Source of the DNA: a virus
Direction: 5' to 3' (one strand)
Length of the DNA: 32,165 bases
IMG/VR virus record: IMGVR_UViG_3300020580_000288
Coordinates: 1 to 32,165 of that record
Position 1 is the first letter of the stretch. Each line of letters opens with the position of its first letter. The notes beneath the pieces are model-generated. The model was given only the letters and a program-made list of their open reading frames with translations, made no database searches and was not told where the DNA came from. The position numbers and the translations under genes were made by a program. Positions 26,794-29,552 of this stretch are shown in pieces.

Positions 26794-26908
26794 TTATTGA
26801 AACTTCTCCCGTCGTATGCGTTGAGCGGTGGCGGGCACCCCTGGATTGTTGTCAGTCCTGTTGAGGCTGCTGACGAGCCTTATTGCTTTGCTACTACTTC
26901 TTAGACAT
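26794..26908 (-). pseudogene. remnant of a small gene, two frames with stops
   Basis: The 114-nt gap holds what looks like a broken small gene. An ATG (26906-26908) overlapping the stop region of the preceding gene reads MSKK, then two TAG codons, then QSNKARQQPQQD and TGA. In the next frame the same strand reads SLNRTDNNPGVPATAQRIRR and ends EKFQ-stop at 26794. The Gln-rich start and the PGVPATAQRIRREKF end look like parts of one short basic phage protein separated by a frameshift. TAG serves as a true stop elsewhere here, so stop recoding is unlikely. Weakly supported. Confidence 0.3.
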
Positions 26909-27569
26909 CATTCTCGGCTAACTCTGCTTCCGTGTACTTCTTCAAATTGCGGAGTTCCCACAAACTGCGTTGGTAACGACGGAAGGTTTTGTTGCCTGAA
27001 GGTAGTCCAAAAATCTTGTGAGCTTGGTACTCGGTTAGAATCTCTTTCTTAATGAGTTCCATTAATACCGTGCGCCAACCTCTAAACTTTTCCCCGACTG
27101 GGATGTTGTGGCGGTCCAATCGTAAAACGGACCATTCATACATCGCTGGGATTTGCAAATAACAAACATAGCGGGCTCGGGCAACCTGCTTGGGGGGAAT
27201 ACACCACAGCCCAATCGTGCCCTTCAAGCCGTTATAAACTGTGAAACACTTGATACCGTTAGCTCGGAGTTTCGCGACAAACGCGTCCGTGGACATCGGA
27301 TTGACTTTACGGGCTAGCTCGTTGGTAAGGTCTTCTTGGTCTTCTATGTGATACTGTTCACCCATTTCATCCGAGATTTCTTTCTCGGCGGCGAAGCTTT
27401 CCTTAACGAAAGCGCGATAATCTTCTGGCCATCGGACCCAATTCGGTGTGCCGCCTGCTAGAATCTGTTGGATACTGGCTTTGGTTGTGGGCAGGTCGTG
27501 GTGACCTAGGAATGGGTCGTCTACTTCTTTCAGGTGGTCTGCGGTTCTGATGCGATTGTCGACTGACAT
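26901..27569 (-). CDS. unrecognised phage protein, 222 aa
   Basis: Not recognised. A soluble, mixed-charge protein with NWVRWPEDYRAFVKESFAAE near residues 43-62, an acidic helix, a strand pair (IKCFTVYNGLKGTIGLWCIP), then aromatic and basic segments (YVCYLQIPAMYEWSVLRLDR) and a basic C-terminus. The ATG at 27569 is preferred over one five codons upstream because AAGGA sits 5 nt before it and would be inside the gene for the earlier start. Its 5' end is overlapped for 40 nt by the 3' end of the homing endonuclease gene. It and the 217-residue gene are likely to travel together in head or neck assembly, by position only. Confidence 0.65.
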   Translation of the reverse strand: MSVDNRIRTADHLKEVDDPFLGHHDLPTTKASIQQILAGGTPNWVRWPEDYRAFVKESFAAEKEISDEMGEQYHIEDQEDLTNELARKVNPMSTDAFVAKLRANGIKCFTVYNGLKGTIGLWCIPPKQVARARYVCYLQIPAMYEWSVLRLDRHNIPVGEKFRGWRTVLMELIKKEILTEYQAHKIFGLPSGNKTFRRYQRSLWELRNLKKYTEAELAENDV

Positions 27570-28198
27570 TGGATTCCTTGACATAGGTCACAGTCTAATT
27601 TTATTATACCACGAGCAACATGATATCGCTTATGACCAGATATATGTCCTGCTATTGCTGCTTCTTCAGATGTTCTAATCGGTGGTCGAAGACCAAGACG
27701 CTTAGTAACTTCTCGATGTTTATCTTTTGTTTCTTGAGAAACCACTCTTGCTTGCGCGGCTTCAGACATCTTGCGTCTGGTTTCATCCGAAAAGACACGA
27801 CCTTTATATCTCTCTGACATAGCCTTAAGATATTCTGGTGTTCGGATAGCGCCGACCGCACACTTATTTCCAAGAAGTTTTTGCGCTCGTCTTTTACGAG
27901 TTTCTAAAGAAAGACCGACTACGCCTTCACCGCCATCAGTTAAGTTATAACCATTTGGTGCTTTAGTATTATATCGGCTGATATACTCAGTTTCAAACTC
28001 CCCCGCCAATTCTTTAGTAGGGACATCAAAAAGAACTTCCATACTGAAGTTATTTGCACCATATTTATCTATGGCGTTGCGAAGGGCTCGACAACCTTTG
28101 CGAGTCTGATGTATATGCCAGCGCCATTCTAAAGAACGAGATGTCTGACCTATATACCTTTTTCCGTTGACTAAATTTGTGATTAAATAAACTATCAT
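27530..28198 (-). CDS. GIY-YIG homing endonuclease (free-standing)
   Basis: A 222-residue nuclease. The GIY-YIG core is at residues 3-90: VYLITNLVNGKRYIGQT (Y4, Y15 of YIG), an arginine at R26, the metal-binding glutamate in EFETEYI (about E71) and GYNLTDGG (N85). Residues about 95-165 carry NUMOD3-like DNA-binding repeats (SLETRKRRAQKLLG; SDETRRKMSEAAQARV). The end has a GHKRYHVARGIIKLDCDLC motif seen in related phage endonucleases. Such enzymes nick or cut a defined site and drive copying of the element by repair. The gene lies 112 nt past the capsid 3' exon, not within the intron, and overlaps the next gene by 40 nt. GAGGAG lies 5 nt before ATG. It has its own promoter and leader hairpin. 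Confidence 0.9.
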   Translation of the reverse strand: MIVYLITNLVNGKRYIGQTSRSLEWRWHIHQTRKGCRALRNAIDKYGANNFSMEVLFDVPTKELAGEFETEYISRYNTKAPNGYNLTDGGEGVVGLSLETRKRRAQKLLGNKCAVGAIRTPEYLKAMSERYKGRVFSDETRRKMSEAAQARVVSQETKDKHREVTKRLGLRPPIRTSEEAAIAGHISGHKRYHVARGIIKLDCDLCQGIQCQSTIASEPQTT

Positions 28199-28222
28199 TT
28201 GCTCTCCTCAAAAGAGCGGATT

Positions 28223-28249
28223 GGAGGATGTGTTTGAGGCACACCCTCC
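28223..28249 (-). promoter_or_regulatory. 5'-leader hairpin ahead of the endonuclease gene
   Basis: A 10-bp stem (GGAGGGTGTG with CACATCCTCC, one G-T pair) and a 7-nt loop, starting near the predicted transcription start. Its 3' arm ATCCTCC could also pair with the GAGGAG ribosome-binding site at 28204-28209, so the leader may switch between exposing and hiding that site. T4 intron endonuclease genes use leader hairpins to limit translation; applying that here is inference. Confidence 0.5.
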
Positions 28250-28256
28250 TTTCCTA

Positions 28257-28285
28257 ACCTTATCAAAGGTTGCAACCTTTGTCAA
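28257..28285 (-). promoter_or_regulatory. sigma70-like promoter for the endonuclease gene
   Basis: Perfect -35 TTGACA (28280-28285), a 17-nt spacer, and a -10 TAAGGT (28257-28262) with an upstream TGa extended element. It points toward the GIY-YIG gene and begins 25 nt past the capsid stop codon, so the endonuclease can be transcribed apart from the late operon. Confidence 0.7.
28264..28281. promoter_or_regulatory. 18-bp palindrome in promoter spacer, candidate operator
   Basis: CAAAGGTTGCAACCTTTG is a perfect 18-bp inverted repeat filling the space between the -35 and -10 boxes. A dimeric repressor bound here would block polymerase. There is no T-run after it, so a terminator role is unlikely. 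The regulator is not encoded in this window. Confidence 0.6.
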
Positions 28286-28310
28286 GGGTTAAATTTTATG
28301 CCGTGTTTAC

Positions 28311-28400
28311 TTACTGAATAGCAGGTACACTATCAATAAATCTCACGCGCTGCGTATTTAGGCCAGTGGCCGGTGGAAGCGTTACGGTTTGCAATCGCTT
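28311..28400 (-). CDS. major capsid protein, exon 2 (C-terminal 29 codons)
   Basis: An in-frame 29-codon stretch, KRLQTVT then LPPATGLNTQRVRFIDSVP and AIQ-stop (TAA 28311-28313). It has no usable start, follows directly on the intron's 3' end, and looks like the missing end of the capsid protein. The first base is 28400 if the intron ends at GTAGG; an equally in-frame alternative is 28397 (intron ending GGAAG). Splicing restores a capsid protein of 346 (or 345) residues. Confidence 0.75.
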   Translation of the reverse strand, partial: KRLQTVTLPPATGLNTQRVRFIDSVPAIQ

Positions 28401-28601
28401 CCTACTTTTTGTTACTCGCTTTCGCGGAGCCAATCATTTCTGTTGGCTTCATACAGTTCGTTTCCTGTATGTTCAGACTATTGCATCACCTTTCGGTGTT
28501 CTCTCACTTAGTCGTTCAGGCTGCTTTCGCTTGCCCCTCGTTGGCTTCTCAGCGTTCGAGTCAATACAGAGAGAATTTTAATTCCACCATTCCGAATTTC
28601 A
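28401..28601 (-). ncRNA. group I self-splicing intron, ~201 nt, ORF-less
   Basis: Read on the minus strand. P1: the exon end GATTCCAT (28602-28609) pairs over 8 bp with GTGGAATT (28580-28587), placing a U-G wobble exactly at the 5' splice site. P3: TTCTCTC (28569-28575) with GAGAGAA (28499-28505), 7 bp. P7: GACTA (28509-28513) with TAGTC (28476-28480), in the classic contexts AACGACTA and ATAGTCTGAAC. P8: CACC-GAAA-GGTG (28487-28498). P9-type hairpins: CATACAG/CTGTATG (28450-28471), AGCCAA/TTGGCT (28428-28448) and CGC-GAAA-GCG (28417-28426). The 3' end is a G as required. At about 201 nt it is near the size of the 205-nt Azoarcus tRNA intron. P4-P6 were not fully resolved by eye. It begins with TGA, in frame, so unspliced RNA gives a truncated capsid protein. 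Confidence 0.88.
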
Positions 28602-29552
28602 ATGGAATCTGTAACTTGCCCATCCCCCAATTGTTGCGGTCGGGTCGAACGAAGACGGCGGCGCGTCAGTTACAACGCGGCAGTCAATGGTTCTCCAATC
28701 GCCTTCATCAAGGTCGGTGTCGCCAGGAACCTGTAGCCACACACCAATCATCGCATAATTGCCGAAGACATATGTGCGGTACGCGGTCTTCGTGGTCCCG
28801 CTGTAGTTAGCAGTCTTGGTCACGAACGGGGTTTGACGGAAGAGGATGTTCGTGCCAGGAAGCACGATTTCTTTCGTCTGGTCGCTGCCAGCCATCTCAT
28901 CAAACTTCCGTTGCCCACTCTCGGTGTGCTTCCAGTTGTCGATGATGGAGTTGTTCACCGTGGTCGCGTTGTAAATATCACCCAACACGTTCGGTGAAAC
29001 TACGCCGTAGAACATACCCTTTTTGCAAGGGAGAACGTCGGCGCTAACTAGCTGCTGCTTCATTTCACGAACCGTGGCTAGGTCTAGCGTGAACGGAGTT
29101 GCAAGCAAGCCGCTCTGGTTTACGTTTGCGTCAACGCCAGAAGCGCTGTCGGCAACCGCGCTGTACAACTCGCTGATGGACTGCCCAGCTTGATAGCCAA
29201 GTTCCACAGCGGAATTGCCAACGAGTTCGTCAATCGAGGATGCGATTGCGAACGCACTGAAGTTCGCGTAGTTGTTCCATTCACCAACCTGAGCTGGTGC
29301 GGAAATCTGCGAGATAACTTCAGGTGCTCCGACTACTCCGTCGGCGTTTTGTACAACGTCACCCGCTAGGGTGTTGTACTGGAAGAACTGGCGGTTTACG
29401 CCCATGTGCAATCCCTGCACACGACGCTCTGCTACTGTTACGAAAGCGTCTGTTTCTCCCTTAAGGTTGGGGATTAACTCCTTATCGAACAAGATAGCTT
29501 GTGCGGTAAGGACGTTTGATACGTTTGACCCCGAAGGGTTCGGTCCACTCAT
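28602..29552 (-). CDS. major capsid protein, exon 1 (N4-gp56-like, HK97 fold)
   Basis: 317 residues before the intron. The pattern NVLTAQAILFDKELIPNLKG, then QFFQYNTLAG, EWNNYANFSAFAIASSIDEL, FYGVVSPNVLGDIYN and DPTATIGGWASYRF is that of the N4-gp56-type capsid family. These proteins build the icosahedral shell around the scaffold. Most relatives continue for some tens of residues past the IGGWASY motif, but this frame meets TGA right after RFH; the intron and exon 2 explain that. The start ATG has only a weak SD (AGAG), odd for such an abundant protein. Scaffold lies just upstream, as expected. Confidence 0.88.

Follow-up and report, generated by a model that had tools for sequence, protein, structure and literature searches.

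The phage DNA analysed here probably carries one allele of a homing cassette, which takes up the 3' end of the capsid gene together with the gap that follows. We refer to the whole analysed stretch, positions 1 to 32,165 (32,165 nucleotides) of IMG/VR virus record IMGVR_UViG_3300020580_000288, as the window. The cassette would comprise about 35 synonymously recoded last capsid codons, optional ORF-less group I introns within them, a leader RNA in which the ribosome-binding site is hidden, and a single endonuclease gene, which in the window is of the GIY-YIG kind. From the comparison of related loci, we infer that the most likely target of this enzyme in a mixed infection is a relative's capsid tail that is conserved and uninterrupted. 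The break would then be repaired from the carrier, with tail, intron and endonuclease copied jointly, and the carrier would be spared its own enzyme by a tail that is recoded, interrupted by an intron, or both.

The interrupted capsid gene

Coding in the window runs on the minus strand throughout (Table 1). The capsid ORF (28599–29552) ends in ..WASYRFH, followed by an in-frame TGA, and its product is 40% identical to the 'major head protein' of Tunturiibacter phage Tunturi_3, a distant relative and the only one among annotated phages. Intron-less relatives have an unbroken capsid end, ..YKFHQTVTLPPATGxNTQRIRxIDSVPAIQ*; past the break point of the window they read FHQTVTLPPATG..DSVPAIQ. Spliced alignment placed the intron between codons 316 and 317 (FH / QT).

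The 5' exon ends with U and the intron with G. In P1 of the window intron, AUUCCAU pairs with GUGGAAU, and a U-G pair marks the 5' splice site. When 30 related capsid introns were aligned, P3, P5, P6, P8, P9 and P9.1 were supported, both partners having changed in 32 of the 38 pairs, and P7 (GACTA/TAGTC) was invariant. Rfam gave no match to the window intron at gathering, nor at an E value of 10 for positions 28150–28800. We judged that the conserved core from P3 to P8, including P7, outweighs the missing Rfam match; P1 with its U-G pair, the terminal G, the covarying core and the invariant P7 thus point to a group I intron. That it holds no ORF, as an earlier note on this DNA had stated, was borne out.

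Table 1. Features of the capsid locus in the window.
Feature	Coordinates	Strand	Details and basis
Capsid gene exon 1	28602..29552	(-)	Codons 1–316 in relative numbering; ORF list, intron-less relatives
Putative ORF-less group I intron	28392..28601	(-)	210 nt, site codon 316, phase 0; spliced alignment, consensus structure with compensatory changes
Predicted internal guide sequence GTGGAAT	28581..28587	(-)	Complementary to ATTCCAT at the end of the exon, with U-G at the splice site; pairing scan
Capsid gene exon 2	28311..28391	(-)	QTVTLPPATGLNTQRVRFIDSVPAIQ, stop; within synonymously recoded zone; spliced alignment, intron-less relatives
Promoter-like TTGACA-17-TAAGGT	28257..28285	(-)	Inverted repeat AAAGGTTGCAACCTTT in spacer; same layout in relatives
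Predicted leader hairpin 1	28223..28249	(-)	10 bp, loop CCTCAAA (28233–28239)
Predicted leader hairpin 2 with Shine-Dalgarno sequence	28201..28217	(-)	TTTGAGG (28206–28212), complementary to loop 1
Predicted free-standing GIY-YIG homing endonuclease gene	27530..28198	(-)	222 aa; profile and structure-sequence matches
Next phage gene, unknown function	26901..27584	(-)	Start overlaps endonuclease end; right flank of cassette

The endonuclease gene and the sequence before it

The ORF behind the capsid gene is predicted from its catalytic domain to encode a GIY-YIG homing endonuclease. It matched PF01541 (E 3.5e-11), PHROG 314 'homing endonuclease' (5e-38) and, at the sequence level, the I-TevI catalytic domain 1ln0 (E 2.6e-7); the match to NUMOD3 was just above the cutoff. 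Its nearest sequence relatives were at most 45% identical. It had no match to PF02945 (Endo VII), which enzymes of relatives do match. The distance from the capsid stop to the ATG is 112 nt, the spacing that the earlier note had given. Gene order alone would also be compatible with an endonuclease inside a longer intron; this reading was ruled out to near certainty by the 3' exon, which precedes the ORF and has its own stop.

The earlier note had also given the endonuclease its own promoter, a claim that stood in part. The first hexamer of TTGACA-17-TAAGGT (28285–28257) is perfect, the layout recurs in relatives, and TTGACA-17-TAAGAT stands at the matching position there; however, the second hexamer matches at only 3 of 6 positions, and a promoter scan of the window did not list the sequence. 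Between the hexamers, the window (28265–28280) and its relatives have an inverted repeat with arms that covary while the centre changes (TTGCAA, CGGCCA, TTCG). This repeat may be an operator, a cruciform or an RNA hairpin.

When the gene that follows the endonuclease was used as a query against bacterial and archaeal genomes, it matched only two contigs, both from one uncultured archaeal assembly. These relatives of the window phage (L150 and L151) lie in contigs filed under the uncultured archaeon LFW-28, which are possibly binned viral contigs.

Introns and nucleases in related phages

Viral contigs, metagenomic in origin, were scanned with two queries, the capsid and the next gene, and about 100 distinct related loci were obtained from what is a family of soil phages. 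Their capsid genes have introns at about 20 sites, up to four per gene. Spliced alignment located 10 distinct sites within the last 38 of the 342 codons, and codon 338 is one more. The introns at codon 338 were read by eye, since the last exon of only four codons caused the spliced alignment to miss them; in L003, L004, L087, L109 and L134, further group I introns directly follow codon 338 and are themselves followed by this last exon (PAIQ and stop). Some introns at codons 20–29, 91–121 and 202 contain nuclease ORFs, and from codon 271 onward all introns seen in the related loci were ORF-less. Introns of 0.6–0.95 kb with LAGLIDADG-like ORFs, identified by eye, lie near codon 94 in L084, L110, L146, L148 and L150. 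Introns of a single lineage (guide GGG, exon end CCT) were found at two sites of the same gene, codon 29 in L034 and codon 312 in L004, suggesting ectopic movement.

Behind the capsid gene, the gap in relatives is either short, at most about 160 nt, or filled by a nuclease gene. The nucleases are of several unrelated kinds: GIY-YIG, Endo VII-like (PF02945), which is the commonest, HNHa and HNHb. The latter two are HNH-like and were named by sequence pattern, the members tested having no Pfam match.

Co-occurrence was scored in the 94 loci with a whole capsid end and the next gene. Both an ORF-less intron and a nuclease gene were present in 43, a nuclease gene only in 24, an intron only in 1 and neither in 26 (Fisher, 2.6e-8). 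One of the nuclease-bearing loci, L134, was scored as such from its leader and an ORF in the gap that has no family match. The lone intron-only locus (L146) has kept an intact nuclease leader but lacks the gene. The comparison was repeated on independent pairs taken from a capsid tree for which the last 40 codons had been left out: when the members of a pair differed in the nuclease, the intron differed in the same direction in about 6 of 12 pairs and never in the opposite direction (median p about 0.03). The dependence is one-sided. The earlier note had named co-occurrence across related genomes as a check on its proposal, and independent distribution as its refutation. The data went half of the way towards such a refutation: the introns are nearly always accompanied by a nuclease gene (43/44), but 24 of the 67 nuclease-bearing loci have no ORF-less intron, so that only the introns depend on their neighbour.

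Loose pairing of enzymes and intron sites

Certain enzyme families were associated with certain intron sites (p values uncorrected): HNHb behind the capsid with introns at 287/291 (3/3 versus 3/59, p 5e-4), GIY-YIG, weakly, with site 316 (6/19 versus 3/43, p 0.02) and Endo VII-like enzymes with sites 311–312 (8/34 versus 1/28, p 0.03). The GIY-YIG enzymes that adjoin site-316 introns are scattered over the GIY tree without clustering, and introns at this site also lie beside Endo VII-like (L007, L147) and HNH (L090) enzymes. The window and its closest relative, L001, have introns that are almost letter for letter alike and GIY-YIG enzymes that are only 44% identical. Because of this divergence and of the Endo VII-like and HNH enzymes next to same-site introns, the pairing of intron and enzyme is loose and not one-to-one. 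Within families, endonuclease similarity correlated weakly or not at all with tail similarity, which suggests that the parts of the cassette are often reshuffled.

The HNHa clade presented a different picture. In some phages its members lie inside introns at codons 20, 28 or 29, with L059, L062 and L213 having them inside the codon-29 intron. In L086, L090, L136 and L215 the HNHa gene lies behind the capsid, and all four have an ORF-less intron at codon 29. This pattern is the clearest sign in the comparison that an enzyme behind the gene may belong to an intron site. The corresponding link is weaker for the window's own enzyme, since L001 combines the same intron with so divergent an enzyme.

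We considered whether the introns had simply lost their own endonucleases and a free-standing gene had come to replace them, with no functional link now, an alternative raised in PMC10448857. Introns at codons 20, 28, 29, 94 and 202 do bear nuclease ORFs in some relatives, and the genes behind the capsid are often swapped (L034/L086, window/L001), as such turnover would allow. However, ORF-bearing introns are missing from codon 271 on, the same HNHa lineage occurs inside and outside the codon-29 intron, and pure decay predicts many introns without a neighbouring nuclease where one was seen. We therefore regard turnover as improbable.

Taken together, the loci support collaborative homing, most likely in a looser, modular form. 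The earlier note had proposed that a free-standing endonuclease mobilises an intron that has no ORF and interrupts an essential late gene; the distribution of the introns and the block exchange described below agree with this general idea. Its narrower inference, that this enzyme cuts the capsid gene at or near the exon junction, is a prediction to which the recoding, the conversion borders and the links between sites and enzyme families speak only indirectly.

Exchange of the capsid end as a block

L098 (GIY-YIG, no intron) and L099 (Endo VII-like, intron at codon 312) stem from different samples, and the surroundings of the locus are nearly identical in both. Their identity is 96–100%, with a few windows at 88–92%, as far as about −110 nt relative to the capsid stop; it drops to 31–44% between there and about +700 nt and then returns to 96–100%. 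L034/L086 and L020/L021/L103 showed similar block replacement, and the HEG-less pair L144/L137 showed none. Across close pairs, identity in the last 35 codons was 0.93 when both members were nuclease-free, 0.71 when their nuclease families differed and 0.77 when only one had a nuclease, against 0.93–0.97 in the capsid body. The borders of conversion often fall at codons 303–312. Thus, the nuclease appears to be exchanged together with the last ~100 nt of the capsid gene and any intron they contain, as one sharp-bordered block. This was seen mostly in a few close pairs, all on metagenomic contigs, whose enzymes differ or are missing.

Synonymous recoding of the capsid tail

Up to codon 306, synonymous identity was higher in endonuclease-free phages than in carriers by about 0.05. 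The excess was 0.20, 0.10 and 0.23 at codons 307–318, 319–330 and 331–342, respectively. Codons fixed in endonuclease-free phages were picked by one conservation rule in the tail and elsewhere; carriers matched 0.82 of them at codons 31–300 and about 0.5 at codons 307–342 (p 2e-5). The window matched 3 of the 8 diagnostic tail codons, compared with an average of 0.92 in endonuclease-free phages. Codons 315–317 read TTC CAC CAG, each in 16 of 17 endonuclease-free phages, and are mixed in carriers. The recoding of nuclease carriers is confined to the stretch from about codon 307 on, in which intron sites are clustered.

We read the recoded tail as a likely resistance to cutting. Since some carriers have no intron, a protection besides the intron must exist if carriers are to be spared. 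The tail might instead reflect the loss of a conserved DNA or RNA element, or old foreign alleles, which we consider the less likely explanation although one of some weight. The tails of carriers are diverse, and their GC3 is lower (0.53 versus 0.74, codons 307–318), as expected if they had moved between lineages. On the other side, HNHa-clade carriers, whose enzymes would be expected to cut at codon 29, have retained a larger share of the endonuclease-free codons than other carriers (0.62–0.75 versus 0.46–0.53; few sequences).

The position of the recoding also bears on where the enzyme cuts. Were the cut near the endonuclease's own insertion point, in the gap or in the next gene, the intron would be co-converted as a passenger that neither marks nor protects the cut site. 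Such hitchhiking would account for the many intron-less carriers, for the occurrence of one intron site with different enzyme families and for the intron that the window and L001 share without sharing the enzyme. It does not predict that recoding and intron sites are both concentrated from codon ~305, that conversion borders so often lie just there, or that the HNHa and HNHb families go with intron sites of their own, and we consider it unlikely. Cutting within the tail is the reading that we prefer.

A common leader RNA before the nuclease genes

All nuclease families behind the capsid share a leader (28199–28285 in the window, with counterparts among L001–L215), in which a promoter-like sequence with the spacer inverted repeat is followed by a hairpin and then by the Shine-Dalgarno element. 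In 57 of 59 leaders, all located without use of complementarity, loop 1 is the exact complement of the Shine-Dalgarno stretch, and the other two have one G-U pair each. The three middle loop pairs show all four Watson-Crick types between them, and two of the three show all four alone. Loop and anti-loop had 5.8 matched bases, compared with 3.4 when partners were shuffled among loci. Exact searches of viral contigs with three such loops returned 41 matches; about 34 of these lie immediately in front of nuclease genes, some on contigs in which no such capsid was found. These results suggest that the leader hides the ribosome-binding site and thereby exerts translational control.

Rfam had no reliable match for the leader; RatA (E 3.8, window leader) and microRNA models (L029) were judged to be chance hits. 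In L225, L236 and L237, a gene that is not for a nuclease (MKISIKNWSKF..) is preceded by a similar loop and anti-loop whose stem is short.

Significance and comparison with known systems

One capsid gene here provides a natural series: neither part, endonuclease only, endonuclease with an ORF-less intron, and endonuclease inside an intron. As exchange tracts are visible between near-identical phages, the origin of intron-endonuclease partnerships becomes testable on natural variants. The synonymous recoding of an essential gene that seems to travel with an endonuclease suggests a natural counterpart of engineered cleave-and-rescue drives, and the shared leader RNA could serve to find endonuclease genes. 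A fuller version of this idea, which we put forward tentatively and at somewhat less than even chances, is that unrelated, interchangeable endonucleases cut the essential capsid end, that the recoded end and optional ORF-less introns rescue the carrier, and that a common 7-bp loop-loop leader, an element without an Rfam entry found before endonuclease genes in unrelated phages, hides the ribosome-binding site. The modular cassette, the recoding and the leader are new; the underlying principle is already known.

That principle was described in cyanophage S-PM2, where F-CphI cuts the intron-less psbA allele and the intron blocks self-cutting (collaborative homing; PMC6083498). The earlier note had drawn this parallel aptly: as in the window, a free-standing endonuclease adjoins an intron-containing gene. 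F-CphI uses an Endo VII motif, the type that is also the most frequent among the endonucleases behind the capsid gene in relatives, whereas the window enzyme is GIY-YIG. The present locus, known by sequence comparison, differs in that one capsid gene combines numerous intron sites, enzymes of unrelated kinds, a recoded exon and a common leader. The second parallel, MobE of Aeh1, was less fitting; according to a title cited in PMC2988022, MobE is embedded in a ribonucleotide reductase gene, a different arrangement.

I-TevI and MobE are known cases in which the ribosome-binding site is hidden (PMC2988022, PMC3014915). The RNA hairpins of I-TevI, I-TevII, I-TevIII and MobE resemble the present leader in that RNA structure at the ribosome-binding site holds back endonuclease translation (PMC2988022, PMC3014915). 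Those structures were described gene by gene, whereas the loop-loop element is common to unrelated endonuclease families in many phages; such a shared form was not found in the literature searched.

In LittleE, a Cluster J mycobacteriophage, a 0.8-kb capsid intron has its own endonuclease gene, and splicing was shown experimentally (PMC3706429). Like the window, LittleE has a presumed group I intron in the major capsid gene and intron-less relatives (PMC3706429), but the window intron is ORF-less, 210 nt long and known from sequence. The terminase intron of ICP1 is closer in layout: a T5orf172 endonuclease is adjacent to it, and its authors considered the origin of such an arrangement unclear (PMC10448857). 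As in the window, the endonuclease lies beside, not inside, the intron of an essential gene (PMC10448857). The capsid locus adds to this about 100 relatives with and without each part, including one enzyme clade that is found in both positions.
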